A stretch of DNA of 64,000 bases, from NCBI RefSeq assembly GCF_009911795.1, contig NZ_CP047898.1:2790001-2854000 (forward strand). The letters are read 5' to 3'. The notes under the pieces were generated by a model that saw only the letters and a program-made list of their open reading frames with translations, had not been told where the DNA came from and did no database searches. Below are positions 41,357-61,516 of this stretch, piece by piece. The position numbers and the translations under genes are program-made. The DNA comes from Pseudarthrobacter psychrotolerans. GTDB taxonomy: Bacteria > Actinomycetota > Actinomycetes > Actinomycetales > Micrococcaceae. Each line of letters opens with the position of its first letter. The stretch's first letter is position 1.

Positions 41357-41449
41357 ACAGTTCGGCGCCGGGGTCGGTGTGGATCTCGCCGTTGGCGGGC
41401 AGGCTCGGTTCGGTCATCCAGCACAAACCGTGAAGGAGACCGTTCCAGA

Positions 41450-42103: not shown

Positions 42104-42141
42104 AAGCGGACGACGGCGGGAGGTCCCGCCGTCGTCCGCTT
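42104..42141. repeat. GACGACGGCGGG hairpin repeat, copy 8
   Basis: Perfect outer arms AAGCGGACGACGGCGGGA and complement around a GG centre, followed by the family tail TACGTTGAGTGCCGCT. It lies between a small minus-strand gene and an SDR remnant. Confidence 0.93.
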
Positions 42142-44942: not shown

Positions 44943-44980
44943 AAGCGGACGACGGCGGGACCTCCCGCCGTCGTCCGCTT
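44943..44980. repeat. GACGACGGCGGG hairpin repeat, copy 9
   Basis: Perfect AAGCGGACGACGGCGGGA / TCCCGCCGTCGTCCGCTT around CC, with the family tail GCGTTTGGTGCCGCT. It lies between the convergent nuclease and MFS genes. Confidence 0.95.
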
Positions 44981-44998: not shown

Positions 44999-46348
44999 CT
45001 ACGCCGCGGCGGAAGCGGGAACCTTCAGCGGTTCCACCTTGCCCAGGACGAACAGGTAGTTCGCTGCACCGGCCAGTGAAACCAATCCGATGACCGCGAG
45101 CGGCGCCGCGTAGGATCCGGTCTGGTCCACCAGGACGCCGATCAGGACCGGGGTGAAGATGCCGGCCAGGTTCGAGGCGAAGTTCTGGAGCCCGCCGATG
45201 GATCCGACGTGGCGGGAGCTCGGGGCAACGTCCGCGGGGAGTGACCAGATGCCGGTAGCGGCGACGGTGAGGCTGGAGTAGGCCACCGACAGGAGGGCCA
45301 GTGCCATCCATGCCTCGGGGACCAGGGCGGCGAACATGATGACCGAGCCGCCGATCAGGCCTCCGGCGATGGCGGTCTTGCGGACCCGAGTGACCGAGAT
45401 GCCGCGCTGGACGGCCCGGTCGGCAACGTAGCCGGCCAGCCAGCCGAACGCCACCGCGCAGATGCCCGGGATGGCGCCGAAGAGGCCGAGCTTGAGCAGG
45501 TCGAAGCCGCGTTCCTTCACGAGGTAGCTCGGGAAGAAGGTGATGAAGAAATAGATGGCGCTGTTCAGGCAGAAGAAGCCGAACATCATGCTGAGGATGG
45601 TGCGGTACTTGAAGAGCGAGCGCCAGGGAAGCTTCGCTGCCTCGGCGTCGTCGTTCGCTGCGCTTCGGGCACCGCCGTCCCGGATGTAGGCCCGCTCCTC
45701 GTCATTGGCCGTCGGGTGGTCCTCGGGGTTCCGGTACATTTTCCACCACACAACAGCCCAGATAATTCCGGCCACACCAATGATGATGAAGACCGCGTGC
45801 CAGGACGTGAAGGCGACGATCAGCGTGACGATCGGCAGCGCGATGACCGCACCCACCCGGGATCCTGAATCCCAGATGCTGGTGGCAAAGGCCCGTTCGC
45901 GGACCGGGAACCAGGTGGCCACCACCTTGGCGGCGGTGCTGGGGGCCGGACTCTCACCTACACCGAGCAGGAACCGCGTGGCGAACAGCGACCAGAAATT
46001 CTGCGCAAAGGCAGTGAGCATCGTGAAGACGGACCACCAAACCGCGGCAAGAGTGAAGGACTTTCGGGGCCCCACCTTGTCCACGTACCACCCGGCAGCC
46101 AGCTGGCAGAAGTCATACGCCCAGAAGAAGGCGGCGAAAATGAGACCCTGCTGGGTGGCCGAGAGCTCAAAATCCTTACCCATAAACGGCAGGGCAACGC
46201 TGAGGCTGGAGCGGTCAAGGTAGTTAATGCTGAGCCCCACGAACGCGAGCCAGATGATCACCCAGCGCTTGCGGGTCATGGTGCGGTGAGCCTTGGAGGA
46301 AAGATCGGGGGAAGAATTGGGGGCGAGCCTGCTGCCTAGGACAGTCAT
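44999..46348 (-). CDS. MFS transporter, anion:cation symporter (sugar-acid) family
   Basis: A 449-residue, 12-span symporter of the ACS family (glucarate/galactonate type). Signatures: IWLAFVGLSINYLDRSSLSV in span 1, the AAGWYVDKVGPRKSF loop, RFLLGVGESPAPSTAAKVVA in span 4 and WFPVRERAFATSIWDSGSRV. It probably imports a hexonate or pentonate feeding the enzymes at 52.5-58 kb. AAAGGAGACGGT precedes the ATG. Divergent from the GntR gene, with a predicted operator over its -10 box. Confidence 0.92.
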   Translation of the reverse strand: MTVLGSRLAPNSSPDLSSKAHRTMTRKRWVIIWLAFVGLSINYLDRSSLSVALPFMGKDFELSATQQGLIFAAFFWAYDFCQLAAGWYVDKVGPRKSFTLAAVWWSVFTMLTAFAQNFWSLFATRFLLGVGESPAPSTAAKVVATWFPVRERAFATSIWDSGSRVGAVIALPIVTLIVAFTSWHAVFIIIGVAGIIWAVVWWKMYRNPEDHPTANDEERAYIRDGGARSAANDDAEAAKLPWRSLFKYRTILSMMFGFFCLNSAIYFFITFFPSYLVKERGFDLLKLGLFGAIPGICAVAFGWLAGYVADRAVQRGISVTRVRKTAIAGGLIGGSVIMFAALVPEAWMALALLSVAYSSLTVAATGIWSLPADVAPSSRHVGSIGGLQNFASNLAGIFTPVLIGVLVDQTGSYAAPLAVIGLVSLAGAANYLFVLGKVEPLKVPASAAA

Positions 46349-46424
46349 ACCGTCTCCTTTGACGTAAACGTGGCTTTCGGGTGCCTGGACACCGGGGAGG
46401 ACGCCGGGGTTCCCGGCGCAAAAT

Positions 46425-46470
46425 CATGTAGGAATCGAAATAATCATATAGTTAATGTGATCCAGAGCAA
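46425..46470 (-). promoter_or_regulatory. promoter and operator of the sugar-acid transporter
   Basis: On the minus strand: TTGCTC (46470-46465), a 16-base spacer, TATGAT (46448-46443), inside the operator-like CTATATGATTATTTCGATTC followed by CTACATG. The same -35/spacer/-10/operator layout recurs at 52438-52485 and 58313-58360. Confidence 0.75.
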
Positions 46471-46563
46471 CTTCTGGAGGAAAACGCCCCCGCCCCGGCC
46501 GCTCCCAGCCGTGGAATATGATTCCCAAAGCGACTCCACCAACAAGCACAAAGAGGTAACCGC

Positions 46564-47295
46564 GTGCCCACACGTCAATCATCCGATGCAACCAAAGGCA
46601 AGGCAGCCGTCAGCGACGTCTACGCCTCCATGCGGGCCTCCATCCTCAAGGGCGAAATTGCACCCGGCGCACGGATCAATATTGATGCGGTCTCCCGCAG
46701 CCTCGGAGTCTCACAGACCCCGGTCCGCGAAGTCCTTCAACGGCTGGAGGGTGACAACCTGGTGGTCTACAGCCCCGGCCGAGGATACAGCACCACCCCG
46801 CTGCTGGACCTGCCCGCACTGCGGTCACTCTTTGAGTTCCGGCTGCTGGTGGAGCCGTGGGCCGCGCGCTCCGCGGCCGTGGACCGCCTCGCCAACCCCG
46901 CCGCGGCGCTGGAGAAGGAACTGTCGGCCATCCGCGACTCCATGAAGACCACCAGCGGCGACGCGCGGCAGGACCTCGTGGCCCATGACACCCGCTTCCA
47001 CGACACCATCCTGCTGGCAGCGGGGAACCCGGTGGTCCAGCACGCCTTCGCCCAGACCCACTGCCACCTGCACACCTTCCGCCTCTACCCGGCAGACATC
47101 GACGGCGCCATCACCATCGCCGAGCACGCCACCGTGCGGGAGGCCATCGCATCCTGCCTGCCCGACCGCGCCGAGGAGGCCATGGCCGAGCACATCAGGA
47201 ATTCCTTCGCCCGGTTCGCCAAGGCCTTCGAAGGCAAGGCGGACCTCTCACCACTGGAGAGCGACGGGCCACCACGAAGGCATATCGTCACCTGA
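46564..47295 (+). CDS. GntR family regulator with FCD domain
   Basis: A 243-residue regulator. N-terminal winged helix: VYASMRASILKGEIAPGARI, then AVSRSLGVSQTPVREVLQRL and VVYSPGRGYSTTP. C-terminal FCD ligand domain with metal-site residues in LFEFRLLVEPWAARS, HDTRFHDTILLAAGNPVV and EHATVREAIASC. GAGGTAACC precedes the GTG start. Divergent from the sugar-acid transporter. I infer that it binds the CCTATATGAT-type operators at three promoters and is relieved by a sugar-acid intermediate. Confidence 0.91.
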   Translation: MPTRQSSDATKGKAAVSDVYASMRASILKGEIAPGARINIDAVSRSLGVSQTPVREVLQRLEGDNLVVYSPGRGYSTTPLLDLPALRSLFEFRLLVEPWAARSAAVDRLANPAAALEKELSAIRDSMKTTSGDARQDLVAHDTRFHDTILLAAGNPVVQHAFAQTHCHLHTFRLYPADIDGAITIAEHATVREAIASCLPDRAEEAMAEHIRNSFARFAKAFEGKADLSPLESDGPPRRHIVT

Positions 47296-47548
47296 AATCG
47301 AAGCTGGCCGGCATGAGCATCCTCGAGGAGGGCACTCCTGGACAGAGCGGAAGCTTGCCGGTCCCCGTGGCCTTCTCCCTCATTCATAGGCAGCAGCTGA
47401 TTCAAGCGACGGAGACGTTGCCGACAGCAGTGACAGGCCCAAATTCCGCCGGATGCAATGAGATCACTTCAGCTTTACGCAACGTCGACTATGGGCGGTG
47501 ATTCGTCGGTGGACTTTGTACCCTGGTGTTGGGGATTGCTGTTGTGGG

Positions 47549-47877
47549 TCAGGCCACCTGGGGTGCCATTACTCCCAAGGGAGCAGCGTCGTCGGGGGCG
47601 AGGATGCTCAGCCTGTAGTCGGACTGGAGCGGATCGACATCGTCAGGCAGATGGTGCGCCGCGAGCAGGTCCGGAGTTCTTCCAACGCGTCGGGCTCGAT
47701 CCGGGCCCGGGTCATATCGAGTTCCAGGGTCATTCCCGTGGTGAGCGAGTTGGCGCGCTTCATCACGTCATACAGGCCGCGGACGCTTTTGGAAGTCACA
47801 TGGCCCTGCGCGGCAACCTGGGCCGTTGCGCAGTCGAGGTCCACGCGGACCAGCACTCGAAGCTTGTCTGTCGTCAC
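47549..47877 (-). pseudogene. STAS-like small protein, frameshifted
   Basis: Reads MTTDKLRVLVRVDLDCATAQ, VAAQGHVTSKSVRGLYDVMK, LTTGMTLELDMTRARIEPDA and LEELRTC, resembling small actinobacterial STAS/anti-anti-sigma-like proteins. The frame then goes off into RRTICLTMSI and stops near 47608. One base later it reads LAAHHLPDDVDPLQSDYRLS then ILAPDDAAPLGVMAPQVA to a stop at 47549. One C/G is missing near 47668-47671. The corrected length is ~108 residues. Confidence 0.6.
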
Positions 47878-48612
47878 GAAAATTTCTCCGCTCTAAGTTG
47901 GGTGCCACAACGCTGTGGCGCCCCGGACAACCATAGACGAAATGTGATCCATGCAACACATCTGCCGAGGTTGGATATTTCCGCGGGCCCGGGACGGGGG
48001 ACGCGGCCGCCGGCCCTATCTAGGACGTCTCGAGCTCGCCGTTCGCGACACCGGCCTCGACGACGCAATGGACCACCGCCTGCCATGCGTCCACTTGCTC
48101 CCGCACACAAGTCGCGAGTGCCTCGTTCCGGCGCCCAAGGTCCACGCCTCCACCCAAATGGCAGTGACGTGGACCCCCTCTCCCTATTCCGGCTGCTAGC
48201 CCTGAAGTCGCACGTCAGGGAACCATCCTGCGGGTGGCATTTTGACTCTAGCTAGCCGTAGGGGGAAACTTCTGGCCAACAGCGCCCTCCACTGAGAGAT
48301 TGCCTGGTGGTGATTCTTGCTATAAGCCGAGTACCAAGCGCTGTTGGCTAGCGTGCTTGCTGTCTGTAATTGAGCGGCGACTCGTTGCTTCCGTTCCCGT
48401 GAAAGATATGGGACGACGCCTGGGCAGCGATGCCGGAAAACCCCGACATGGGAATCGGCATCAATGCGTTCCTGAACCGTGTTCACCCCCGATTCACCTG
48501 GAGCCCCACAGGCTGACCAGCGAGTCTGCACGATGAAACCAAGCCACCCATAGCCAGGTGCTGGCCCGACGGCCTTTCGATGACGGAAAAGTGTTCGTGC
48601 CGCCTTCCGCCG
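47878..48612. other. long gene-poor stretch with possible remnant
   Basis: No convincing gene. On the minus strand, 48165-48020 reads VDLGRRNEALATCVREQVDA, WQAVVHCVVEAGVANGELET, then stop; this looks like the C-terminal end of a helical (TetR-like) regulator without its beginning. An open frame of 111 codons at 48196-48531 on the minus strand has no recognisable domain or ribosome site and is probably chance. I see no clear promoter or repeat. Confidence 0.35.
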
Positions 48613-50220
48613 TCAGGCCGTAAAGACCCACTCGCCCCCAACCATTGTTCCCACAACGCCGACATCTGCCAGTTCGGCTGAATTGCTATGCAGAATGTCC
48701 CGATCCAGCACAGCGAGGTCAGCATCCATGCCCGGCAATAGCGTTCCGCGGGTGCCTTCTGCCCCTGCCAGCCAAGCGCTGTCGGCCGTTAACGAGTGCA
48801 GCGCCTGGGCCGGGGTGAGTCTTTGCTCCGGCCCAAGAGTTGCACCGGAGCTGGTCTCACGGGTTACCGCAGTCCATAGGGTCCGCAGCGAATCCATGGG
48901 GGTAATCGGGCAGTCCGAGTGAAGGCCAAAGTGCAGGCCTTTCGAAACCGCGTCTGCCAGGGGTTCTATCCTGGATGCACGGTCTTCCCCGATAAAGATG
49001 TCCCTGTGCCGGTCACCCCAATAGTAAATATGGTTGGCAAACACTGAGGCAGCGCCGCCCGCGGCGATAAGGTCCTCAATGTCATTGGCAGATGCCATCT
49101 GAAGGTGTTCGATGCGGTGTCTGGAGTCGCTTCGCCCACCGTCTTTTTTTACTTCGGCGAAGGCATCCACCACCGCGCGGATGGCTCGATCCCCGTTCGC
49201 GTGAACTGCACATTGGCCGCCTGCGGCATCGATGGTCTTAACCAGATTGACCAGATGGTTAAATTCAAAAAGCAAGTCTCCGCAGCTTTCCTGTGCGCAG
49301 GAATACGGCTGGGTCAACGCAGCAGACAGGCCCTGAATCGAACCGTCAGCCCAGTATTTTGCCCCCACTAGGTCGAAATTTCCCCGGGGCCCGGCTGTGA
49401 AGAGGTTCGGACGGGCGTCCAGGAGATCCGTGGCATAGTCCCCACGAAGGTACCCGATTACCCTAATCGGGATACGATCGGCGTCCGCCAGATGCTCCCA
49501 CGTCTCCAGTTCCATAGCGCCGCCCATCAAACCGATACCCAAGTCATGGACGGAGGTCATGCCGCGGGAGGCCGCCGTCGATAAGGCATGAACGGCGGCG
49601 TCCTGAAGCTCGCTCTCCCGCGGTTTGGGCGCGGCATCCATGATGAGGTTCACGGCACCCAATTCCCACATCAATCCTGTTAGCTTGCCATTCCCGTCCC
49701 TGACCAGTCTCCCCTCTGCCGGATCGGACATGTCCTCCGTCACACCGGCGACTTCCATCGCCTTGGTGTTGGCTACGACGAAATGGCCGGAGATATGGGA
49801 AACGATGACGGGAACGTCTGTACTTACGGCGTCCAGATCGTCGCGTGTGGGATGGCGGTTTTCGAAAAGAAGCGTGTCATCGTAGCCCCAGCCTCGGACC
49901 CATGCGTTGCCAGTCAGATTACGCAACGTCGCGCGGAGGGTCTTCTGCACATCCGCTATGTCCCGGTTCAATGGGCTGCGGCAATCCGCCCAGTTCCGGG
50001 TTAGACCATAAAAGATCGGGTGAACGTGAGACTCGACGAGACCGGGTATGACACTGGCACCCTTCAAGTCGTGAACCTGGGCTCCGGACCCCGCAACAGC
50101 TTCGGCCTCGTCACGGCTGCCCGCTGCCAGAATCCGACCGCGTGAAACGGTGAGGGCTTCGACGGGCTCAGCGAACGCGTCAGTGCGTATTATGCCGTTG
50201 GTGATTATTGTGGCTGCCAC
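48613..50220 (-). CDS. YtcJ-like metal-dependent amidohydrolase
   Basis: A 535-residue Amidohydrolase_3 enzyme hydrolysing an amide or imide bond; substrate unknown. Metal-site motifs: VIPGLVESHVHPIFYGLTRN, GQCAVHANGDRAIRAVVDAF, RHRIEHLQMASANDIEDL and GLHFGLHSDCPITPMDSLRT. GWGYDDTLLFENRHPTRDDL and ADLAVLDRDI are typical of YtcJ-type proteins. The GTG at 50220 follows GCGAGGTATAGCT, 2 bases after the symporter stop, so it is coupled to the transporter that probably imports its substrate. The open frame continues far upstream but only as symporter antiphase. Confidence 0.86.
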   Translation of the reverse strand: MAATIITNGIIRTDAFAEPVEALTVSRGRILAAGSRDEAEAVAGSGAQVHDLKGASVIPGLVESHVHPIFYGLTRNWADCRSPLNRDIADVQKTLRATLRNLTGNAWVRGWGYDDTLLFENRHPTRDDLDAVSTDVPVIVSHISGHFVVANTKAMEVAGVTEDMSDPAEGRLVRDGNGKLTGLMWELGAVNLIMDAAPKPRESELQDAAVHALSTAASRGMTSVHDLGIGLMGGAMELETWEHLADADRIPIRVIGYLRGDYATDLLDARPNLFTAGPRGNFDLVGAKYWADGSIQGLSAALTQPYSCAQESCGDLLFEFNHLVNLVKTIDAAGGQCAVHANGDRAIRAVVDAFAEVKKDGGRSDSRHRIEHLQMASANDIEDLIAAGGAASVFANHIYYWGDRHRDIFIGEDRASRIEPLADAVSKGLHFGLHSDCPITPMDSLRTLWTAVTRETSSGATLGPEQRLTPAQALHSLTADSAWLAGAEGTRGTLLPGMDADLAVLDRDILHSNSAELADVGVVGTMVGGEWVFTA

Positions 50221-50222
50221 AG

Positions 50223-51736
50223 CTATACCTCGCGTGTGAGTACGTTGTCGGAGACCGGCATTGGTTGGCCGCTTTTGGGATCCGCCGCGTCCAGCGCCAC
50301 TGCGGAGAATTGTGTGGTCAACCTGTGCTTCTTCCTTACCCAGACTGCCTCCGAGGGTTGCTTCGCAGGCCACACCAGCCGGCCAATGACGACGATGACG
50401 ACGTTGACCGCCAGGGACGGAACACCGATATTGAGTCCGCCAAGATCCGCACCCGAGAGGTAAATTCCAACTGCGGTCGCCGCTCCGGCCAGAAGGCCTG
50501 CGGCTATATTCGATGGCCGTACTCGACTGCCCGCGATCAGCAGAACAACGGCCACAGCCAACTGAGTGATTCCGTAGTAAGAAGTGTTGATCAGCGCGCC
50601 CATTAGATTTGGGAAAACAAGCGTGAGAACGATCGAAACCGCCAGGTAAATCGCAATAATGACCCGGACGAGTGATTTCTGCTTTTCTTCTTTCACACCC
50701 GTCAAAACATTGCGTGAAACCAGCGTGCCAATGACCAGTGAGGACGCGGCGAGGACGACTATGGCGCAAAGGGCTGCGCCGCCTGCAACGACGCCTACCA
50801 GCCAGTCGGGGAGGAGACGCCGGGCAACCTCGATAAATGCGAGGTTGGTATCCGGCCCTTTTAGTCCCGGCACAGCCGAGATTGCGAAGTACGCCGTGAT
50901 CATGAGGAACGGGTACATCAGCATGTAAATAGGCATACCGATCTGAGTCTTCCGGACCGTCTTCGCTGATTTGGAACTGAGTATGGCTTGAATGACGAAT
51001 GGGAACATGAAAAATCCGACGGCTTGGAAGAGCATGGTCGACACCGTGTGAATCATCGGACGCCCGGCAGCGATTGTGGTGTGGGCCGAGCCTACGTTGG
51101 CGTCCGCCATGATCTTCGGTATCGACGTGTTCTGTCCGAGGACAAACACTGCAACGACAACGATCGCGAAGATGAGTGCGAAGTCCTTGACGTAACTCAC
51201 ATATGCGGGTGCCCTGATTCCCGACAACATAACAAAGATGAGGGCAATGCCCACGCCGACCAGCACAGTAACGAGCGGAGTGAAACCTAGCCCCAAGCCG
51301 TTGAGTGCCACTGTAAGTCCAGTGAGCTGAAGTTGAGCCCAGGGAATAAGGAAGACAACCGAGACCAGCGCGGCTGCCAACTCAAGGGCGCGCGAGTTAA
51401 AGTGCCCCCTGAAGATGTCCGGCAGCGTCATGGCGTTGTGCTTGCGGCCAACCTTCCACAGGAGCGGCAGCAAGAAATAGCCAATTGGATAACCGAGCAG
51501 AATGTAACCCATGAACCAGATGGCGAAGCCTGCCCCTCGGCATAAACACCGCCCGGGAAACCGATGACGGTTCCGATGGAATAGACCTCTCCAACAACAA
51601 GGATAAAGAGGAGGATCCCGCCGAATTTTCGTCCGCCGACGAGGAAGTCAGCGGTCGTTTTGCCGGCACCCCGCCGGGAATAGATGCCCAGCCCCAGGGC
51701 CACGAGAAGAACCAAAACGAATGTTACGACAATCAT
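50223..51736 (-). CDS. sodium:solute symporter (SSS family), frameshifted
   Basis: A ~504-residue, 13-14-span Na+ symporter when joined. The first part from ATG 51736 reads TTADFLVGGRKFGGILLFIL, then GEVYSIGTVIGFPGGVYAEGQ. The rest continues in another frame from about 51529: FAIWFMGYILLGYPIGYFLL, PLLWKVGRKHNAMTLPDIF and so on. One G is missing near 51529-51531 (CAGGGCTTC expected, CAGGCTTC present). The 3' part is fully open and conserved-looking, so sequence error is as likely as a real break. Its start overlaps the DUF3311 stop by ATGA. Confidence 0.83.
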
Positions 51737-51975
51737 TTTGTTGCCTCACTAGGTGCCGTAGCAGAGTCTTCCTCGTAGTCCGCGTCACGATCGTACAAGC
51801 GCCAGGCGATGGCCATCAGTGCACTGGTGATCGGGAACAGGGCAAACACAAACACGAATAGCACGGGAACGCTGAAAATGGTCGCCGTTGACCCGCCCAG
51901 AAATAACACCCCAGCCGTGAGAGCTACGAGCGGTATGCCGAGGACGATCAGCATACTTTTTGGATTTGGATTCAT
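51733..51975 (-). CDS. DUF3311-like small membrane subunit of the symporter
   Basis: About 80 residues with two membrane spans (SMLIVLGIPLVALTAGVLFL; FSVPVLFVFVFALFPITSAL) and a charged cytoplasmic tail ending RLYDRDADYEEDSA. Small DUF3311 proteins commonly precede SSS-family symporters and are thought to be accessory subunits. The ATG at 51975 has AGAGG 8 bases upstream; in-frame starts up to 52026 are possible. First gene of a three-gene operon. Confidence 0.75.
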   Translation of the reverse strand: MNPNPKSMLIVLGIPLVALTAGVLFLGGSTATIFSVPVLFVFVFALFPITSALMAIAWRLYDRDADYEEDSATAPSEATK

Positions 51976-52026
51976 CTGGGCCGCCTCTAAGAGGAATGGA
52001 ATAGTCATTCCAGTCTTAGCGGCCAC

Positions 52027-52437
52027 CCTGGACTCTTCAAGACCCAGATTTGAACAGGTTGACCGGTCCAGTTGTGTGACTCAACCCACTCCCGTTGGTG
52101 GTGGGGTCTGTCCGAACTTTCAACTAAACCTTGGGCAGAGCGCTTCCTCTGCGGCATCCATGGCGCCCAGGATGTTTCAAAGCCCCGGCGCCGATACAGC
52201 TACCCCAGGCCCTGACCACCATCGCCTGGGCTAGCGCTTCGTCACTTCGCGGGCTAGAGGTGTTCCCAGGCCCGCCTGAGGGCTTCGACGCGGGAGACGG
52301 CTTAGGGGTAGAAGTACCATTCCATGCACCTGAGCCGTTCAGGATCGACCAGGGATGCCCCGTCGGGGTTCGGTGGAGAAGATCACCGTGAAGTGGTTGG
52401 CGGCAGGGACGTGGAGCATGGCGAATTTCGCCCGCAC
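52027..52437. other. intergenic stretch with a faint hydrolase remnant
   Basis: No intact gene. The minus strand near 52330-52430 reads AKFAMLHVPAANHFTVIFST, which resembles the HxPGxNHF end of alpha/beta hydrolases, but the match is short. The right edge leads into the promoter of the dehydratase operon; the left should hold the symporter-operon promoter, where TTGACCGGTCCAGTTG is a possible dyad. Confidence 0.3.
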
Positions 52438-52485
52438 TTGATCTGAATCACTGTTCCTATATGATTGTGAGAATTCATATAGGAA
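52438..52485 (+). promoter_or_regulatory. promoter and dyad operator of the dehydratase operon
   Basis: TTGATC (52438-52443), a 16-base spacer, TATGAT (52460-52465). Over the -10 lies a perfect inverted repeat: TTCCTATATGA (52454-52464), 10 bases, TCATATAGGAA (52475-52485). This is the best-formed of three related sites and is expected to bind the GntR/FCD protein. Confidence 0.82.
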
Positions 52486-52526
52486 TCGTGCTAACGAAGT
52501 GAATTGACCAGAGAGAGAAGAAACCC

Positions 52527-53873
52527 ATGACCTCCATCATTTCCATCCACACCCAAGACGTGCGGTTCCCCACGTCCCTGGAACTCGACGGTTCCGACGC
52601 GGTCAACGTTGACCCGGACTACTCCGCCGCGTACGTCGTCATCCGCACTGATGCGGGCGACGAAGGCCACGGCTTTGTTTTCACGTGCGGACGCGGCAAC
52701 GAAATCCTCACGCACGCCATTGACGCCTACGCCGGCCTGCTCCTCGGCCGGGACATCGACGAACTGATCTACGACCTCGGCGGCGCGTCGAAGCGCCTCA
52801 TCCACGATTCCCAGCTGCGCTGGCTCGGCCCGGAGAAGGGCGTCACCCAGATGGCCGCAGGCGCCCTCGTCAGCGCCCTCTGGGACATCCGCGCACGGCG
52901 CGAGAACAAACCCCTATGGCTCCTCCTCAGTGAGATGCCCGCCGAAGAAATCGTCGACGTCGTCGATTTCACCCACATCCGCGACGCGCTCAGCCCCCAG
53001 CAGGCACTTGACATCCTGCGGGCCGGCGAAGACGGAAAGGCCGCCCGGATCGCCGCCCTGAAGGTGGACGGCTACCCCGCGTACACCACGTCGCCGGGCT
53101 GGCTGGGCTACAGCGACGAGAAGCTGGTCCGCCTGAGCAAGGAAGCCGCCGCGGACGGCTTCTCCATGATCAAGCTGAAGGTGGGCGGCAACATCAATGA
53201 CGACCGCCGCCGCATGGCCCTGGCCCGAAAGGCTGTGGGCGACCTCCCCATCGCCATCGACGCCAACCAGCGGTGGGAAGTATCCGAGGCCATCGAGTGG
53301 GTCAACCAGCTCTCCGAGTTCAACCCGTACTGGATCGAAGAACCCACCAGCACGGACGACATCCTGGGCCACGCGGAGATCCGGAAGGGCGTTGCCCCTG
53401 TCCGGGTCGCCACCGGCGAGGCAGTGGCCAGCCGCATCGTGTTCAAGCAGCTGCTCCAGGCCGGTTCCATCGACGTCCTCCAGCTGGATTCGACCCGGGT
53501 GGGCGGCGTCAACGAGAACATCGCCAACCTCCTGCTCGCGGCCCGCTTCAACGTACCGGTTTGCCCGCACGCCGGCGGCGTGGGGCTTTGCGAACTCGTC
53601 CAGCACTTCTCCTTCTTCGACTACGCGGCCATCACCGGCAGCCAGGACGGCCGGATGATCGAGTACGTTGACCACCTGCACGAGCACTTCGCCGAGCCGG
53701 TCCGCATTGTCAACGGCCGCTACGCCGCCCCGGAGCTCCCGGGCACCGGCGCCGAAATGCTCACCGCCTCGCGGGACCGCTGGGAGTTCCCCACCGGGGC
53801 CGGATGGCTCGAAGTGGGCGACCGCGCCGCGGTTACCGGCGCCTCCGTGACCGGAGCCGGTGCGCTCCGATGA
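52527..53873 (+). CDS. L-fuconate dehydratase-like enolase-superfamily enzyme
   Basis: A 448-residue acid-sugar dehydratase removing water from L-fuconate or a stereochemically related aldonate (for example D-arabinonate) to give a 2-keto-3-deoxy acid. Features: [20 protein letters not shown], catalytic lysine in [12 protein letters not shown], metal ligands in [25 protein letters not shown] and [10 protein letters not shown], and the catalytic His in [20 protein letters not shown]. These segments match the FucD group rather than mandelate racemase proper. First gene of a five-gene ATGA-coupled operon. Confidence 0.9.
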
Positions 53874-55357
53874 CAACCACGGTCGATGACCTCAACGCGA
53901 GTGTCGACGCCGCCCACGCCGCGTTCGAAAAGGGCCGTGCCGCGGACCCCGGCACCCGGGCAGCCTGGCTGGAGGCGATAGCAGCCGCACTGGAGAACGA
54001 CGCCGACGCACTGGTGGAACTCGCCGCCCGGGAAACCCATCTGGGCGAGCCACGGCTCCGCGGCGAGCTGAAGCGCACGGTCTTCCAGCTCAGGCTCTTC
54101 GCCACGGAAGTCCGCGATGGCGAGCATTTCGACGCCACCATCGACCACGTGGACGCGGACTGGGGCATGGGCCCGCGGCCGGACCTGCGCCGGCTCAACG
54201 TGCCCATCGGCGTTGTGGGCGTCTTCGGAGCCTCCAACTTCCCCTTTGCCTTCAGCGTGATGGGCGGCGACAGCGCCTCGGCACTGGCCGCCGGGTGCGC
54301 CGTCGTTCATAAGGCACACGACGGGCACCGGAACCTCGCGCTCCTCACCGCCGGGACCGTCATCGCCGCACTGGATGCCGCCGGAGCGCCTTCCGGGCTG
54401 TTCTCGCTCGTCACCGGCCGGCCTGCCGCGGAGGCCCTGGTGGACCATCCAGCCGTGAAGGCGATCGGGTTCACGGGTTCGACGGCGGGCGGCCGGGCAC
54501 TGTTCAACCGCGCCGCCGCCCGGCCCGAACCGATTCCCTTCTTCGGCGAACTGGGCGGCATCAACGCCGTGTTCGTCACCGAGAACGCCTGGGCGGCGCG
54601 GCGCGACGAAATCCTCAGCGGATACGCCGCTTCCCTAACGATGGGAATGGGCCAGTTTTGCACTAAGCCGGGGCTGCTGTTTGTTCCGGGCGGACAGGCC
54701 GACGGCGTCCGGCAGGTTCTCAGCGGAGCGCTGGCGGGCTTTGCAGCGGCAAGGCTGTTGAGCCGGCGGTTGCATGAGGGCTACCGGCAGTCTGTGCAGG
54801 ATCTGCGGAACACCACCGGCGTGGACGTTCTTGTGGAAGGAGACTTCGACGAGGCGCCGGCGCCAACCGTGCTCCGGACGACATCCGCGGCCGTCCGCAG
54901 CGATCCGTCAATTCTGCGGCAGGAAATGTTCGGGCCCGCCAGCCTGGTGGTGGAATACGGCGACCAATCGGAGCTCCTGGAACTCACGGGACTTCTGGAG
55001 GGACAGCTGACCACCACGCTCCAGGCTGAGCCGGATGATGATGTGTCGGACCTCGCCGCACGGCTGACGGACATCAGCGGCCGGGTCCTCTGGAACGGCT
55101 GGCCCACGGGGGTCACGGTCAGCTATGCGCAGCACCACGGCGGACCGTACCCCGCCACAACATCGGCCACCACCTCTGTGGGAACGGCCGCGATCCGGCG
55201 CTTCCTCCGGCCGGTGGCCTACCAGTCGTTCCCGGAAGGACGCCTGCCCGAGCCTCTGCAGGACGCCAATCCCTGGCGCGTTCCGCAGCGGGTGGATGGC
55301 GTGTGGCAGCGACCCATCCGGCAGGGACAAACCGCAGGAAGCGCGGCGCAGCCATGA
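53870..55357 (+). CDS. NADP-dependent aldehyde dehydrogenase (2-oxoglutarate semialdehyde type)
   Basis: A 495-residue aldehyde dehydrogenase. Cofactor segment [20 protein letters not shown], then [35 protein letters not shown]; catalytic Glu in [12 protein letters not shown]; catalytic Cys in [18 protein letters not shown]. The FGASNFP and GQFCTKPG variants mark the 2-oxoglutarate-semialdehyde dehydrogenase group of non-phosphorylating pentose routes, which would make 2-oxoglutarate from a dehydrated pentonate. It overlaps its neighbours by ATGA on both sides. Confidence 0.88.
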
Positions 55358-56558
55358 GCGCCCCGATGGACCTCGGCGGGGCCTCGGTCCTCCCGGAAGA
55401 CGCGGCACGGGCACTCCTGATCGGCCGTGTCTGGGACGTCGAAACCGGCGGACCCCGGGTGGTCGCGGTCCAGGAAGAGGACGTATTCGACCTCCAGCAG
55501 CTGGCCGGAACAGTCTCCGAGCTCCTGGAACGGCCGGATCTCGTGGCCGCCGTCCGCACGGCCATGACGCTGCCGCGCTGGAAGACCAGCGAGATCGTCC
55601 ACGCGTCGCTGACGCAGGACGCGACTCGCCCGCATTTCTTGGCGCCGGTGGACCTTCAGGTCATCAAGGCCTGCGGCGTGACGTTTGTGGACAGCATGAT
55701 CGAACGGGTCATCGAGGAGCGCTGCGGCGGCGACGCCAGCCGCGCGGCCGAGATGCGGGAGCTGGTGGGCCGTGCGCTCGGCGGCAGCATCAGCTCCATC
55801 CGGCCAGGCTCCCCCGCGGCAGCCGAGGCCAAGAAGGTGCTCATCGCCGAAGGGCTTTGGTCACAGTACCTGGAGGTGGGGATCGGGCCGGACCCCGAGG
55901 TTTTCACGAAGGCTCCGGTGCTCTCCTCGGTCGGGCTGGGCGCGGGGTCGGGATCCCCGCCTTCTCCTCATGGAACAACCCGGAACCGGAACTGGTGCTT
56001 CTTGCCACGTCGGACGGCACCGTTGTGGGCGCAACCCTGGGCAACGACGTGAACCTCCGCGACGTGGAGGGCCGGAGTGCCCTGCTGCTGGGGAAGGCGA
56101 AGGACAACAACGCGTCCAGCGCCTTGGGTCCCTTGATCCGGTTGTTCGACGACGGTTTCACCCTGGAGACGCTGCGCCAGGAGGAGATCCAGCTGCGCGT
56201 GGAAGGCCAGGACGGTTACTCAATGGAGGGACGCAATTCCGTATCGCGGATCAGCCGGCCGTTCGAAGAGCTCGTCGCCGCGACGATTGGAAAGCACCAC
56301 CAGTACCCGGACGGGTTCGCCCTGTTCACCGGCACTCTTTTCGCGCCGACCCAGGACAGGGACCATCCGGGACAGGGGTTCACGCACCACATGGGCGACA
56401 CCGTGACCATCCGCAGCCGCCACCTCGGCGCCCTGGTGAACGTCGTGGGGGCGGCGGAAGAGTTGCCAGAATGGTCCTATGGCCTGCGGCAGCTGTTCGG
56501 CTATCTGCAGAGCCAACGCCAAGTCCTCGAATCAAGCCGTAAGGAATATGCCTCATGA
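55354..56558 (+). CDS. FAH-superfamily 2-keto-3-deoxy-acid dehydratase-like enzyme, frameshifted
   Basis: A ~401-residue fumarylacetoacetate-hydrolase-fold protein when joined, about the length of XylX-type 2-keto-3-deoxy-pentonate dehydratases. The first frame (RPHFLAPVDLQVIKACGVTF, VDSMIERVIEER, KAPVLSSVGLGA) breaks near 55943-55947 in a GGGG run. The second begins VGIPAFSSWNNPEPELVLLA and continues ATLGNDVNLRDVEGRSALLL, GKAKDNNASSALGP and so on. One base is missing. Next to the semialdehyde dehydrogenase it suggests a Weimberg-type branch to 2-oxoglutarate. Confidence 0.83.
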
Positions 56559-57397
56559 AGTTTGCCCAGATTGGTGCCCCGGGCGCCGAACAACCCGTAC
56601 TGGTCCACGGGGACCGGCACTACTCGCTCCAGAGCATCACGCCGGCCATCAACGGCGACTTTCTGTCCAACGGTGGCCCCGCCGCTGCCGCCGCCGCCCT
56701 GGCCGCAGGAACGCTGCCGGACATCACCTCCGACGACGTCCGCTACGGCGCCCCCGTGGTGCGCCCGTCCGCCGTCGTCTGCGTTGGCCTGAACTATGCT
56801 GCCCACGCAGCGGAATCAGGTGCCCAGCCGCCGGAACATCCGGTCATCTTCCTCAAGACGCCCAACACCGTGGGCGGGCCGGACGATGCCGTGGCCATCC
56901 CCCGGGGATCCACCAAGACTGACTGGGAAGTGGAGCTCGGGATCGTCATCGGGAAGCGGGCCTCCTACCTGGACTCCCCCGAAGCCGCCCGGGACCACAT
57001 CGGCGGGTTTGTGGTGGTGGATGACCTTTCCGAGCGTGACTTCCAGCTGAACGTTTCCGGCGGCCAGTGGTCCAAGGGCAAGAGCTCGCCGGGGTTCTGC
57101 CCCACGGGTCCCTACCTGGTGACCCCGGACGAGGTCGACGCCGGCAAGCTGCGGCTGCGCAGCTGGGTCAACGGCGAAATCCGCCAGGATTCATCCACGG
57201 CGGACATGATCTTCGACGTCGGGACCATCGTCTGGAACCTGAGCCAGTACATGGTGCTCGAGCCCGGCGACCTCATCTGCACCGGCACCCCCGAAGGCGT
57301 GGCTCTGTCCGGGCGTTTCCCGTACCTGAAGGCCGGCGACGTTGTGGAAATCGAAGTTGAAGGGCTGGGGCGGCAACGCCATGAATTCATCGCATGA
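56555..57397 (+). CDS. FAH-family hydrolase (2,4-diketo-3-deoxy-fuconate hydrolase-like)
   Basis: A 280-residue single-domain fumarylacetoacetate hydrolase-fold enzyme. Seen: VCVGLNYAAHAAESGAQPPE, IFLKTPNTVGGPDDAVAIPR, metal-ligand Glu in TDWEVELGIVIGK, GFVVVDDLSERDFQLNVSGG, QWSKGKSSPGFCPTGPYLVT and GDLICTGTPEGVALS. In L-fucose oxidation a member of this group splits a 2,4-diketo acid into pyruvate and lactate; with the SDR next door that role is likely. ATGA overlaps at both ends. Confidence 0.9.
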   Translation: MKFAQIGAPGAEQPVLVHGDRHYSLQSITPAINGDFLSNGGPAAAAAALAAGTLPDITSDDVRYGAPVVRPSAVVCVGLNYAAHAAESGAQPPEHPVIFLKTPNTVGGPDDAVAIPRGSTKTDWEVELGIVIGKRASYLDSPEAARDHIGGFVVVDDLSERDFQLNVSGGQWSKGKSSPGFCPTGPYLVTPDEVDAGKLRLRSWVNGEIRQDSSTADMIFDVGTIVWNLSQYMVLEPGDLICTGTPEGVALSGRFPYLKAGDVVEIEVEGLGRQRHEFIA

Positions 57398-57411
57398 ACG
57401 GGGACCCAACA

Positions 57412-58161
57412 ATGGAGTTTGAAGGCATCCGTGCCATCGTCACCGGTGGGGCCTCGGGAATCGGAGCCGCCACAACGGCGCACCTGACCCGGCGCGGGGC
57501 GAGAGTCGCGGTGCTGGATCTGAACCCGGACGCAGCGTCCGAGGCGGCGCTGGCGATCAGATGCGACGTGGCCGATGACGCTTCGGTGCGGGCCGCCGTC
57601 GAACGCGTTGCCCGGGAATTTGGCGGGATCGACGTTGTGGTCAACAACGCAGGCATTGGCGCCCAGGGGACCGTTGCGGACAACGACGACGCCGAATGGC
57701 ACCGCGTCCTGGACGTCAACGTGATCGGCGCGGTGCGGGTGAGCCGGGCAGCTTTGCCCCATCTGCGGCAGTCCCCCGCCGCCGCGATCGTCAACACGTC
57801 CTCCATCGCTGCCACGGCCGGGCTGCCCGCCCGGGCACTCTACGCCGCCACCAAGGGCGCCATCCGGGCGCTGACGTTCAGCATGGCGGCCGATCACATC
57901 CGCGAAGGCATCCGGGTCAACTGCGTCAACCCCGGCACGGCTGACACACCCTGGATCAACCGGCTGCTGAGCCAGGCGGATGACCCGGTAGCGGAACGCG
58001 CGGCGCTGGAGGCCCGCCAGCCGCACGGCCGGCTGGTCACGCCGGAGGAGGTTGCTGCGGCGGTTGCGTACCTGGCCAGTCCGCTGGCAGGTTCGACCAC
58101 GGGCACTGAACTGGCGGTCGACGGCGGCATGCAGGCGGTGCGCCTGCGTCCCGTCGAGTAA
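57412..58161 (+). CDS. short-chain dehydrogenase (2-keto-3-deoxy-fuconate dehydrogenase-like)
   Basis: A 249-residue classical SDR: cofactor motif VTGGASGIGAATTAHLTRRG with VLDLNPDAA (Asp, NAD-type), NNAGIG, catalytic Ser in VNTSSIAATAG, YxxxK in LYAATKGAIRAL, and PGTADTPWINRLL, which is close to sequences of L-fucose/KDF dehydrogenases. Probably oxidises the 2-keto-3-deoxy acid at C4. Start chosen at the ATG at 57412 (GGGGAC upstream); the ATG at 57394 overlaps the previous stop and would add six residues. Confidence 0.88.
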   Translation: MEFEGIRAIVTGGASGIGAATTAHLTRRGARVAVLDLNPDAASEAALAIRCDVADDASVRAAVERVAREFGGIDVVVNNAGIGAQGTVADNDDAEWHRVLDVNVIGAVRVSRAALPHLRQSPAAAIVNTSSIAATAGLPARALYAATKGAIRALTFSMAADHIREGIRVNCVNPGTADTPWINRLLSQADDPVAERAALEARQPHGRLVTPEEVAAAVAYLASPLAGSTTGTELAVDGGMQAVRLRPVE

Positions 58162-58201
58162 CGTCCCACCGGGGTAACGCCCCGTCGGAGTAAGAAGCCA
58201 C

Positions 58202-58245
58202 GAGGCGCCGTTGTGTCCTGATTGATCAGGACGCGGCGGCGCCTC
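58202..58245 (+). terminator. strong two-part hairpin after the dehydratase operon
   Basis: Outer arms GAGGCGCCG / CGGCGCCTC and inner arms GTCCTGAT / ATCAGGAC around a TG loop; all pair perfectly with a small internal bulge. It lies 40 bases after the SDR stop and ahead of the next promoter, so it should end or reduce readthrough into the ABC transporter genes. Confidence 0.75.
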
Positions 58246-58312
58246 TGGCGTGTCCGGATTCACCGCGCAGCCCCCTAAAGGCGAGCGCGCACGGGAGCAA
58301 TTCAGGAGGGGC

Positions 58313-58360
58313 TTGACCTGTGTCACATCCCCTATATGATAGTGCGTATTCCTATATGAT
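58313..58360 (+). promoter_or_regulatory. promoter and operator of the ABC transporter operon
   Basis: TTGACC (58313-58318), a 16-base spacer, TATGAT (58335-58340). CCTATATGAT occurs twice as a direct repeat (58331-58340 and 58351-58360), 20 bases apart. The layout matches the promoters at 46.4 and 52.4 kb, although there the second half-site is inverted or degenerate. Confidence 0.78.
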
Positions 58361-58453
58361 CTCCGACGGCCGAACGACCGGGATCCCCGGACTCCGTCAC
58401 CCCCGCATTCGATCCGTATCCGATCCGCATCAACAATCTCCAGGAGAGCACCC

Positions 58454-59293
58454 ATGTTCAAAGCAACACCGAAGTTGCTTCTTGTTCCGGCTATCGCGTT
58501 GGCCCTCACGCTGGGAGGCTGCTCCTCCGAGGGCGCCTCGGCCGGCGCCGGTGGCGCAACAGGAGCCGTGGCGAACAGCCACCTCACACAGATTCTCAAG
58601 ACGAAAACGATCAAGATCGCTGTCAGTGCCGACTCCCCGGGGTACGGCGTAATGACCTCATCAGGTGAGCACGAGGGTTTCGACATTGACGTCGCGAACG
58701 CGCTGGGCGCCTCGCTGGGCGCCAAGGTTGAGTTCGTCACGGCGACGAACGAGAGCCGCATCCCGCTGCTGCAGACCGACAAGGCGGACGCCGTCATCGC
58801 CACCTTCACGGCATCGGATGCGCGAGCCCAGGTGGTGGACATGTCCGAGCCGTACGCCGCCAGCTCCACCGTCTTTATGGTGCCCGCGGGAAGCCAGATC
58901 GGCAGCTATGCGGATCTGGACGGGAAGTCCGTGGCCACATCCCGGGGAAGTGTGGGCGAGCAGATCCTCAAGGCCACCTTCCCGAATGCCAAGATCGCCG
59001 GCTTCAACACCACGGCCGACTCCATCCAGGCCCTCAAGAGCGGCAAGGTGGACGCACTGATTGAAAACAACGCCATCATCGGCGGGCTCGTAAAGAGTGA
59101 GCCCTCCGCGTTCCAGGTGCTCAAGGGCGATCCGATCAGGCCGGCCCTGTTCTCCATCGGCGTCAAGCAGGGCGACCAGACGTGGGTCAACTACATCAAT
59201 AACTTCATCCGGAACTACACCATCTCCGGACAGAACGAGGCCTCCTTGCAGAAGTGGTTCGGGCTGGATCTTCCGCCCTTCCTCGCCCACTAA
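58454..59293 (+). CDS. ABC transporter substrate-binding lipoprotein, family 3 (polar amino acid type)
   Basis: A 279-residue binding protein. Signal MFKATPKLLLVPAIALALTL ends at lipobox LGGCSS. Family-3 features: KIAVSADSPGYGVM, EHEGFDIDVANALGASLGAK, TNESRIPLLQTDKADAVIAT, MSEPYAASSTVFMV and GSYADLDGKSVATSRGSVGE. CAGGAGAGCACC precedes the ATG. The family usually binds polar amino acids or opines, but the shared operator with sugar-acid genes hints at an acidic sugar or a related conjugate. Confidence 0.9.
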   Translation: MFKATPKLLLVPAIALALTLGGCSSEGASAGAGGATGAVANSHLTQILKTKTIKIAVSADSPGYGVMTSSGEHEGFDIDVANALGASLGAKVEFVTATNESRIPLLQTDKADAVIATFTASDARAQVVDMSEPYAASSTVFMVPAGSQIGSYADLDGKSVATSRGSVGEQILKATFPNAKIAGFNTTADSIQALKSGKVDALIENNAIIGGLVKSEPSAFQVLKGDPIRPALFSIGVKQGDQTWVNYINNFIRNYTISGQNEASLQKWFGLDLPPFLAH

Positions 59294-59378
59294 CAGTATT
59301 CGGACGCACTCTCCGGTGTGGGTGGAGGACAGGCAGTCATTCACCCACACCGCCGTTCACGGATAGGACCCTTTGCTC

Positions 59379-60050
59379 ATGGCTTTATATTTCGGAGACC
59401 TTCTCCCCTTCAGCTCGCTATTGCTCGAAGGGCTCTGGACCGCTTTGCACATCACGCTCGTGGCCATGGTGGCGGGAAGCGCACTCGGCGTCTTTCTGTA
59501 CCTGGGGAAGGTCGGGCCCGGAAAAGCAGTCAGCATCTTCTGCACGTGCTACATCGAGGCCATCCGCAACACGCCTCTGCTGGTGCAGCTATACCTGATC
59601 TACTTTGCCCTTCCCACATTGGGCATCAACCTCGAGCCCATCTGGGCCGCTCTCATTGGCCTGACCCTGAACAACGCGGCATACACGGCGGAAATTTACC
59701 GGGCCGGGTTCGAGTCCGTGCCCCACGGCCTGCGCGAGGCCGGCAAGGCGCTGGGCATGAAGAACGCCCAGATCGTACGCTTCATCGTCCTGCAGCCCGC
59801 CACCCGAAACGTTTTCCCCGCACTGACCAACCAGCTGATCCTGCTGTTCCTGGCTTCGTCGATTGGATCCATCATCTCGCTCCCCGAACTGACCAACGCG
59901 ATCATGAGCGTCAGCAACACCACGTACCGGACCGTCGAGGTTCTCGCCGTGGGCGGGCTGCTCTACCTTGGCGTTTCCGCCCTGTTGTCCCTGGCCTCGA
60001 AACGTGCCGAAACGACGCTGTTCCGGTGGGCGGTGGGCGCACGTGTTTAG
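59379..60050 (+). CDS. ABC transporter permease, His/Glu/Gln type (first)
   Basis: A 223-residue permease with about five membrane spans (SLLLEGLWTALHITLVAMVA at the start) and the coupling loop HGLREAGKALGMKNAQIVRF. CYIEAIRNTPLLVQLYLIYF is the conserved family motif. Start chosen at the ATG at 59379; a TTG six bases upstream, nearer to AGGACC, is possible. It overlaps the next permease by 8 bases. Confidence 0.91.
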   Translation: MALYFGDLLPFSSLLLEGLWTALHITLVAMVAGSALGVFLYLGKVGPGKAVSIFCTCYIEAIRNTPLLVQLYLIYFALPTLGINLEPIWAALIGLTLNNAAYTAEIYRAGFESVPHGLREAGKALGMKNAQIVRFIVLQPATRNVFPALTNQLILLFLASSIGSIISLPELTNAIMSVSNTTYRTVEVLAVGGLLYLGVSALLSLASKRAETTLFRWAVGARV

Positions 60051-60730
60051 GGCCTTTGACTGGCAGGACCTCATTCCGCTGGCCAAGGGGGCCTGGCTGA
60101 CCATTCAGCTCTGCGCGATGTCCGGCATTCTCGGCATCATCTTCGGACTGATCCTCGGCATTGCCAGAACCTCCCCCAGCAGGATCGCCCGGTGGATCAG
60201 CACCATCTACATCAGCTGCGTTCGCGGCATCCCCATTCTGGTCATCATCTTCTTCATCTTCTTCGGGATCCCGCTGCTGTTTCCCGGCCTGGAACTGGAC
60301 AAGTTCGCCTCGGCCGTCATCGCACTGACCTGCTTCGCCGCCGCCTATGTGGCAGAAATCGTGCGTGGCAGCATCGAGGCGGTGCCCAGGGCCAAAGTGA
60401 AGCGGCAGACGCCCTCGGTCTTAACTACTGGGCGAAGCTCCGGTATGTGGTTATGCCGCAGGCCCGGAAGATCATGATTCCCCCGGCGTCGGCTTCCTTA
60501 TTGGCCTGGTGAAGGATTCCTCGCTGGTGACGGTGACCGGGCTGGTGGAACTGACCCACGCCGGCAACATTGTCACCAACCTCACCGGCGACCCCATCAT
60601 GACGTTCCTGACCGTCGCCGCCATGTACTTCGTCATTTGCTACAGCATCTCCCTGCTGGGACGCCTGTACGAGAAACGCACCGGCATCCAGGTGGACCCC
60701 CTCAAACTTCCCGAGCCCGCGAGCGTTTAG
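60043..60730 (+). CDS. ABC transporter permease, His/Glu/Gln type (second), two frameshifts
   Basis: GTG start inside the end of the first permease. The frame reads [40 protein letters not shown] and [14 protein letters not shown], then is lost at about 60390. [20 protein letters not shown] with [11 protein letters not shown] lies in a second frame. Another break at about 60480-60484 leads to [20 protein letters not shown] and the C-terminus [10 protein letters not shown]. Both breaks are one missing base (GGGG and CCCCCC expected). Two such losses 90 bases apart in an otherwise perfect family member suggest sequence error. Confidence 0.82.
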
Positions 60731-60744
60731 ATCGGAATAAGACT

Positions 60745-61482: not shown

Positions 61483-61516
61483 AGCGGACGACGGCGGGAG
61501 GTCCCGCCGTCGTCCA
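61483..61516. repeat. GACGACGGCGGG hairpin repeat, copy 10
   Basis: GCGGACGACGGCGGGA / TCCCGCCGTCGTCC around GG, with the last few arm bases changed and the family tail TGCGTTTGGTGCCGC. It lies between the convergent ATPase and DUF3846 genes. Confidence 0.9.

Follow-up and report, generated by a model that had tools for sequence, protein, structure and literature searches.

Which regulator controls three look-alike promoters in a putative sugar-acid gene cluster of Pseudarthrobacter psychrotolerans, a soil bacterium of the Arthrobacter group, and how might it act on them? The cluster lies in the window, the whole stretch of 64,000 nucleotides analysed here (positions 2,790,001 to 2,854,000 of contig NZ_CP047898.1), which is part of a 4.96 Mb contig in a genome of 5.17 Mb. 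An initial annotation of this DNA had proposed that promoters at 46.4, 52.4 and 58.3 kb form a regulon of the GntR/FCD protein encoded from position 46564 (gntR, 46564..47295, plus strand, 243 aa), and comparative genomics strongly supports this predicted regulon. Our reading, to which we give a probability of roughly 0.88, is that this dedicated local regulator would repress the three promoters as pairs of dimers, and that a sugar-acid effector would release it.

The three promoters have in common a -35 hexamer of the form TTGNNC, a 16-bp spacer, the -10 hexamer TATGAT and a repeated element. On the minus strand, promoter A reads TTGCTC (46470-46465), 16 bp and TATGAT (46448-46443); on the plus strand, the same spacing separates TTGATC (52438-52443) from TATGAT (52460-52465) in promoter B and TTGACC (58313-58318) from TATGAT (58335-58340) in promoter C. 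This layout had been reported in the initial annotation, and its letters and positions checked at all three promoters. The perfect 11-bp inverted repeat that it described at 52454-52485 in site B was likewise exact, with the arms TTCCTATATGA (52454-52464) and TCATATAGGAA (52475-52485). Its description of the repeated elements as half-sites of one operator did not hold; instead, each promoter carries two full 14-bp pseudo-palindromes with the consensus ATTCnTATAnGAAT; they are centred at a distance of 20 bp, and the first overlaps the -10 hexamer.

At site A (minus strand), the -35 hexamer with TCACA, TTGCTCTGGATCACA (46456..46470, a pattern match with 1 mismatch), is followed by box 1, TTAACTATATGATT (46442..46455, matrix score 16.8), which covers the -10 hexamer, and by box 2, ATTCCTACATGATT (46422..46435, score 20.2), centred 20 bp downstream. 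Site B (plus strand) consists of the -35 hexamer with TCAC, TTGATCTGAATCACT (52438..52452, from sequence and alignment), box 1, GTTCCTATATGATT (52453..52466, score 21.8), again covering the -10 hexamer, and box 2, ATTCATATAGGAAT (52473..52486, score 24.9), which agrees with the consensus at 12/12 defined positions. Site C (plus strand) has the -35 hexamer with TCACA, TTGACCTGTGTCACA (58313..58327, from sequence and pattern match), box 1 over the -10 hexamer, TCCCCTATATGATA (58328..58341, the weakest of the six at 13.2), and box 2, ATTCCTATATGATC (58348..58361, score 21.8). From box 2 to the start codon there are 73 bp for the MFS transporter gene (A), 40 bp for fucD (B) and 92 bp for the ABC binding-protein gene (C).

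To see how far this anatomy is conserved, we aligned 46 promoters (alignment A1), leaving out the degenerate site A of relative G115 and an out-of-register site-C row of G054; site-A rows of G104, G112 and G055 are absent because they were below threshold or had no MFS neighbour. The alignment was free of gaps, with TTG of the -35 and the letters TATAT of the -10 invariant in 46/46, TATGAT in 45/46, TTGA in 38/46 and TCAC in 42/46 promoters, the last belonging to a conserved TCAC(A) element of the spacer that had been overlooked in the initial annotation. As that annotation had claimed, the element covers the -10: box 1 contains this hexamer in the 46 aligned promoters, and box 2 starts near the expected transcription start. 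Spacing was equally strict, as the centres were 20 bp apart in 93/99 distinct box pairs (at most 60 bp apart, both scores at least 7), a count that is partly circular since the matrix was built from 20-bp pairs. At least four of the seven symmetric base pairs were found in 41/46 downstream boxes (29 of these have 5 or 6), and 4 or 5 in 31/46 upstream boxes, with 2 or 3 pairs in the remaining 15/46, against a mean of 1.9 of 7 for random 14-mers from the window. Box 2 of site B is flipped relative to those of A and C, and its reverse complement tracks the A and C boxes position by position, which fits a unit whose orientation matters little. As the units are near-symmetric and this box is flipped, the direct repeat at A and C and the inverted repeat at B amount to the same thing, two adjacent palindromes.

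The three sites stand out from the rest of the genome. The genome scan that had been suggested as a check was run with a model, R1, made from 29 sites of 15 relatives, from which the window and its five near relatives among 20 fetched regions were excluded, so that it is a held-out test for the own genome. R1 recovered sites B (E 3.3e-7), C (E 1.7e-5) and A (E 4.0e-5), E-values of such models being rough; the next match, at E 0.35, was the opposite strand of site B, and no further regulon site fell below E 0.35 in the 5.17 Mb. A pattern written from these sites, CTAYATGATNNTNNNNATTC, had 3 exact matches in the 5.17 Mb, all at A-C, and CCTATATGAT had 3 matches in the own genome, all at these sites, with 0 for the reversed control. 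A pair weight matrix, in whose making the window's own sites were included, gave scores of 46.8, 37.0 and 35.0, while no other place in the window exceeded 0.6 and 25 dinucleotide shuffles reached at most 6.4. A chance origin of the three sites is ruled out by the held-out model together with the shuffles. Across the 206 genomes of the genus, exact CCTATATGAT occurred at least once in 81, compared with 2 for the reversed control, and 22 of these 81 are without gntR. When four of the 22 were checked by eye (G003, G025, G066 and G077), no second box was found 20 bp away; three of these single boxes lie inside open reading frames and one lies before an aldehyde dehydrogenase gene. Since they have no 20-bp partner in the four genomes checked, single boxes were not counted as regulon sites.

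The box pair travels with the regulator gene. Using a threshold of E<=1e-40, gntR orthologues were found in 63 of the 206 genus genomes, own genome included, the latter having a single match. At E<=0.05, R1 matched 60 of the 206, all of which have gntR, and 0/143 genomes without gntR; 15 of the 60 gave training sites and match by construction, and among the 48 gntR genomes outside the training set, 45 have the motif. The Fisher value of the association, 7e-49, is uncorrected for relatedness and, as the genomes are related, is not a true probability. The motif is thus confined to its targets and to genomes with the regulator, and this co-occurrence (60 with both, 0 with the motif alone), along with pairs flanking gntR, strongly supports the proposed regulon of the 46564 protein.

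Co-location was followed in the 20 regions, which were chosen by hand out of the 63 gntR genomes. A box pair follows gntR in 20/20, the next gene being fucD in 19 and an aldehyde dehydrogenase gene in G187, and a pair separates gntR from a divergent transporter gene in 17/20. In 8/20 the SDR gene is followed by an ABC operon, which has a pair at threshold in 7; the pair of the eighth (G054) was found via R1. In a set of 395 genomes drawn from the family, R1 matched 23; three of the 23 belong to other genera, and in each of these gntR lies next to fucD. Pairs on both sides of gntR were also seen in Rhodococcus aetherivorans, a Rhodococcus metagenome genome and Sinomonas mesophila. Two proteobacterial relatives (25-27% identity) have no such pairs at gntR. 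At 94-97% identity, the named gntR relatives are those of Pseudarthrobacter sp. MDT3-9, Arthrobacter sp. Soil762 and a Micrococcaceae metagenome genome. Three genomes, G104, G112 and G115, have a further gntR copy (67-68% identical) that reads divergently from the ABC operon, and a box pair lies in the gap (loci L081 in G104, L083 in G112 and L076 10401-11051 in G115). In the window there are 166 bp from the SDR stop codon to box 1 of site C; given this gap and the single gntR match in the own genome, one regulator probably serves promoters A, B and C.

The protein has the two parts expected of its family, an N-terminal GntR winged helix-turn-helix (PF00392, 9.1e-14, 51.3 bits against a cut-off of 27) and a C-terminal all-helical FCD domain (PF07729, 1.2e-18). 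Residues D142, H146, H188 and H210, which we take to be the FCD metal ligands (Asp and three His), were invariant in 14 homologues. Eight NCBIfam GntR orthologue groups (PhnR, NanR, LldR, GlcC, PdhR and others) matched, none above its cut-off, the best being PhnR (74.9 bits against 271.5), with NanR at 51.4 against 260. The AlphaFold2 model had a mean pLDDT of 79.2 and a pTM of 0.69, and its first helix starts at residue 16. The best Foldseek matches were FCD/VanR-type regulators, with PmiR, Atu1419/VanR and TM0439 among the first 13.

Direct autoregulation of gntR via site A was considered and found unsupported, site A ending 108 bp before the gntR start. Closer to the gene than site A, at 46513-46525, lies a different 13-bp palindrome, GGAATATGATTCC, unlike the boxes in layout and with a -10-like TATGAT; by eye, G104 and G112 also have TATGATTCCC, in reverse complement, ahead of their gntR. 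The region of this palindrome is possibly the gntR promoter.

The boxes, their spacing and overlap with the -10, their uniqueness in the genome and their co-occurrence and co-location with gntR suggest a mechanism with the following binding, cooperativity, repression and effector response. Two FCD dimers would bind the two adjacent 14-bp ATTCnTATAnGAAT boxes at each of the three promoters, and because the centres are 20 bp, or about two helical turns, apart, they would sit on nearly the same face of the DNA and be able to touch. With box 1 over the -10 hexamer and box 2 at the expected start, bound regulator would block RNA polymerase; a protein bound over the -10 normally does so, and since box 1 covers this hexamer, repression by occlusion is the simplest reading. 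The regulator would come off when a pathway metabolite, be it L-fuconate, D-arabinonate or one of their 2-keto-3-deoxy products, occupies the FCD pocket, and all three targets (MFS transporter, dehydratase operon and ABC importer) would then be switched on at once.

Several points weigh against this reading. FCD regulators are able to activate as well, so that a box over the -10 is no proof of repression. The two main counts have the weaknesses given above, circularity for the spacing and relatedness for the Fisher value, and the genus scan with R1 used stricter filters, by which weak matches were lost. Three genomes with gntR 54-63% identical, G050, G053 and G082, had no R1 match; G053 and G082 (62-63% identical) have a weak, degenerate pair upstream of gntR with the 20-bp spacing kept, and G050 has none, although, in favour of the reading, even its 54%-identical gntR sits within a fucD-ALDH-FAH1-gntR-SDR-FAH2 cluster. 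The pair at the MFS promoter of G104 and G112 is below threshold, with the second box degenerate by eye, and in G055 no MFS target adjoins gntR. In G052 the sole pair (score 41.3, L202, C17 about 20831-20862) is about 8 kb from gntR; it precedes a dehydrogenase-like gene and then a binding-protein gene that is TRAP-type by eye, which may place a different transporter under the same operator. Finally, the ATTCnTATAnGAAT box is without the GT...AC core typical of most GntR operators as described in PMC4494728, and has neither the NyGTNxACNy nor the TKGT...ACMA form of the FadR/VanR subfamily. Exceptions to the GT...AC form are known in the subfamily (BioR, NanR and FarR; PMC4494728), so membership is not excluded.

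In FadR, helix-turn-helix positions 28 and 38 are presumably both Arg, and the Arg at position 38 presumably contacts G. In a hand alignment to FadR numbering, anchored on the table of PMC4494728, these positions correspond to Asp41, which is invariant in the 14 homologues, and Gln51, which is variable. With the Arg-G and Asp-C contacts given in PMC4494728 as preferred, the missing GT...AC core and the altered residues Asp41 and Gln51 agree, though just as an indication.

Other explanations differ in what they make of the boxes. If each promoter instead had one operator made of two half-sites, a single dimer would span about 30 bp in direct (A, C) or inverted (B) arrangement. This would suit the perfect 11-bp inverted repeat of site B, and direct repeats are used by some FadR- and HutC-subfamily proteins, such as FarR, NagQ and NanR (PMC4494728); the upstream boxes with 2 or 3 pairs also favour it slightly, although constraint by the -10 would also lower their symmetry. 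It is hard to see how one dimer could read direct and inverted repeats at the same 20-bp offset unless the unit were itself symmetric, and most boxes at both positions are near-symmetric, well above the random mean, with box 2 of B following that of A and C once reverse-complemented. We therefore regard a single half-site operator as improbable. The likeness of the promoters might alternatively come from recent copying of one segment and not from selection for a shared operator, in line with its extent from the -35 to box 2, TCAC included. Yet the flanks and linkers differ among A, B and C, the boxes and their spacing are fixed across genera, and box 2 at B is oppositely oriented, which makes copying extremely improbable.

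As for the protein, another regulator encoded elsewhere might read the boxes, with gntR a mere neighbour; the departure of the motif from the common GntR consensus and the three genomes in which a diverged gntR comes without it would agree with this. Against it stand the absence of the motif from the gntR-less genomes of the genus, the fact that pairs accompany gntR across gene orders, into other genera and to its paralogues, and the 20-bp spacing kept in the degenerate pairs of G053 and G082, so that such a regulator appears very unlikely. The GntR protein could also be an activator or have a dual role in place of plain repression. GntR proteins of both signs exist, and for a palindrome within the -10 a paper on the Rhodococcus pen operon leaves the sign open (PMC11998424); box 1 nevertheless lies over the -10, the normally blocking position, throughout the aligned promoters, and the VanR-type repressor Atu1419 also has a palindrome overlapping the -10 (PMC7797058). 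We consider activation or a dual role unlikely and prefer repression by paired dimers.

The conserved spacer element hints at a second input. Together with the -35 it gives TTGA-N6-TCACA, which resembles the CRP/GlxR consensus TGTGA-N6-TCACA. Most of the aligned promoters, whether A, B or C, contain TCAC(A); some fucD promoters of outgroups, G138 and Sinomonas among them, do not. Of the two CRP-type halves, the right one (TCAC) was seen in 42/46 promoters and the left (TTGA) in 38/46, and the centre would be near -27.5, an odd position for activation. At up to 2 mismatches, the 15-mer TTGAYCTGGATCACA matched the own genome 27 times and its reversed control 2 times; 20 of the 27 were examined, of which 12 are inside long open frames and 3 are sites A-C. 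As most of those examined are inside open frames or at A-C, CRP control is kept just as a lead, and TTGA-N6-TCACA may, by weak inference, be a CRP-like input.

What would be regulated? The genes served are those named in the initial annotation, namely a sugar-acid MFS transporter (A), a dehydratase operon (B) and an ABC transporter (C). The target of site A (44999..46348, minus strand) is an MFS transporter of D-galactonate/sugar-acid type (PF07690, 1.3e-65) and DgoT-like (TIGR00893, 1.7e-103, its 346.7 bits under the cut-off of 395). Site B precedes five plus-strand genes. The first, fucD (52527..53873), belongs to the enolase superfamily; its best PDB matches over residues 1-429 are the L-fuconate dehydratases 2hxt (3.9e-176) and 1yey (4e-176), suggesting that it supplies the L-fuconate dehydratase of an oxidative pathway. 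The aldehyde dehydrogenase (53870..55357; PF00171, 1.3e-45) is of ketoglutarate-semialdehyde type by context, with 2,5-dioxovalerate dehydrogenase models among its best but far below cut-off. FAH-family gene 1 (55354..56558) is 2-keto-3-deoxypentonate dehydratase-like: the copy of a relative matched 9kkt (1.1e-108), named simply FAH-family protein, and the 2-keto-3-deoxy-D-arabinonate dehydratase 2q18 (3.6e-17). FAH-family gene 2 (56555..57397) is 2,4-diketo-3-deoxy-sugar-acid hydrolase-like, matching the L-2,4-diketo-3-deoxyrhamnonate hydrolase 8gsr (1.7e-60), with NF053535 below cut-off (245 of 500). The SDR dehydrogenase (57394..58161; PF13561, 1e-59) is presumed to be a 2-keto-3-deoxy-L-fuconate 4-dehydrogenase, a role assigned by context alone. 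Site C leads into the ABC importer operon (58454..61467, plus strand), with a binding protein (58454-59293), permeases (59373-60050 and about 59968-60512, the latter in two frames) and an ATPase up to 61467; it is of amino-acid type by SBP_bac_3 (1.1e-31) and by the amino-acid-type binding proteins among the best PDB matches of its binding protein.

In bacterial oxidative L-fucose and D-arabinose routes, the genes are often clustered with ABC transporter and regulator genes (PMC6336799, PMC5507952). Like the routes described there, the operon has an L-fuconate dehydratase-like gene to be followed by dehydrogenase and hydrolase (Route III) or by the alpha-ketoglutarate branch (Route II); unlike them, it appears to combine both branches, and its ABC importer is of amino-acid type. 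No fucose dehydrogenase or lactonase gene was recognised in the cluster, and no genome-wide search was made. Judged from the genes, the substrate is probably a sugar acid, most likely L-fuconate and possibly also D-arabinonate.

Between gntR and site B, approximately at 47308-52434, lie about 5.1 kb with an amidohydrolase (PF07969, 1.3e-98) and a symporter-like gene; in the 20 fetched relatives, a box pair comes about 60-130 bp after the gntR stop codon. Compared with G146, the insert of about 5.1 kb appears to replace the gntR terminator, its end lying right in front of the -35 of site B; long repeats flanking it were looked for and not found. The symporter gene (50223-51736), FAH1 (55354-56558) and the second ABC permease gene (59968-60512, by eye) are each in two frames; as FAH1 is in one frame in G146, its split in the window is decay or an assembly error. 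An open frame at 41279-41710, beside another MFS gene, resembles by eye the start of an IS110-type transposase. No RNA element reached the gathering threshold in 44-64 kb of the window.

A separate feature is a 28-bp hairpin repeat, GACGACGGCGGGAGGTCCCGCCGTCGTC, one copy of which folds at -30.4 kcal/mol (z -5.7). Exact copies in the window lie at 20250-20277, 31382-31409, 42109-42136, 44948-44975, 61487-61514 and 63688-63715, and one with 1 mismatch at 27389-27416. Allowing up to 1 mismatch, we counted 15 distinct sites in the own genome, none of them outside 2.703-2.996 Mb of the 4.96 Mb contig; the repeat was found in 132/206 genus genomes, the reversed control giving 0 in all 206. In 13 other hand-picked genomes, 108/111 listed sites fell within 450-820 kb upstream of dnaA; the range was chosen with the data in view, and a uniform spread would put about 8% there. 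This count omits G020, G021, G022, G084, G114 and genomes such as G075, G143, G152 and G172, and for G201 covers the matches listed. The 15 sites of the own genome are 415-708 kb away on the other side of dnaA, and the sites look more scattered in G020, G084 and G143. The repeat may serve to mark a region, or it may be a terminator or REP-like repeat that was amplified locally.

The gene set itself now has a predicted regulator and operator and a probable class of substrate, the regulator being present in 63/206 genus genomes, and guesses on transport and pathway become testable. The strict pair geometry with its natural variants (degenerate second boxes, diverged regulators and a paralogue) offers material on how FCD proteins choose DNA, and the regulon points to a sugar acid as the probable substrate of an ABC importer of amino-acid type. 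A bolder proposal, which we hold as tentative and rather doubtful, is that a VanR/FCD regulator reads the symmetric ATTCnTATAnGAAT without GT...AC as a rigid 20-bp pair fixed to the -10 and to a TCAC(A) input. If true, this would be a new FCD repression geometry that several actinobacterial genera have kept, and one operator type would serve both duplicated regulators and different transporters.

How does the system compare with known ones? Among the matches listed in searches of open-licence PMC papers, none describes this motif or regulon. The kind of system, a pathway-specific GntR/FCD repressor with paired operators, is known, and the predicted regulon would be a solid new example of it with an unusual recognition sequence. 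FadR-subfamily double sites, with near-constant spacing in 29 divergons, were read as cooperative by Suvorova et al. (2015, PMC4494728), and resemble the present pairs; the common site described there has TKGT/ACMA boxes, whereas the window has ATTCnTATAnGAAT, with pairs also at the non-divergent B and C. The nearest described mechanisms are those of NanR (PMC8012715) and Atu1419 (PMC7797058). Escherichia coli NanR, also an FCD-type GntR protein, is a repressor of sialic acid genes whose dimers bind side by side and cooperatively on AT-rich repeats, three dimers on three GGTATA repeats, with cooperativity via a 32-residue N-terminal extension (PMC8012715). Unlike NanR, the window protein already begins its first helix at residue 16, and its NCBIfam NanR score is below cut-off. 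Atu1419 of Agrobacterium fabrum, an FCD protein of the VanR subgroup, has a similar fold (6za3, Foldseek E 3.4e-8) at 23% identity over the structural alignment. Its short palindrome also overlaps the -10, and it is a tetramer of which each dimer is able to bind one palindrome (PMC7797058). As described there, however, the Atu1419 palindrome, ATGTATACAT, keeps GT...AC, which the window boxes are without, and it has paired sites at distances of 190 or 109 bp, for which looping was proposed, whereas the paired centres in the window are 20 bp apart.

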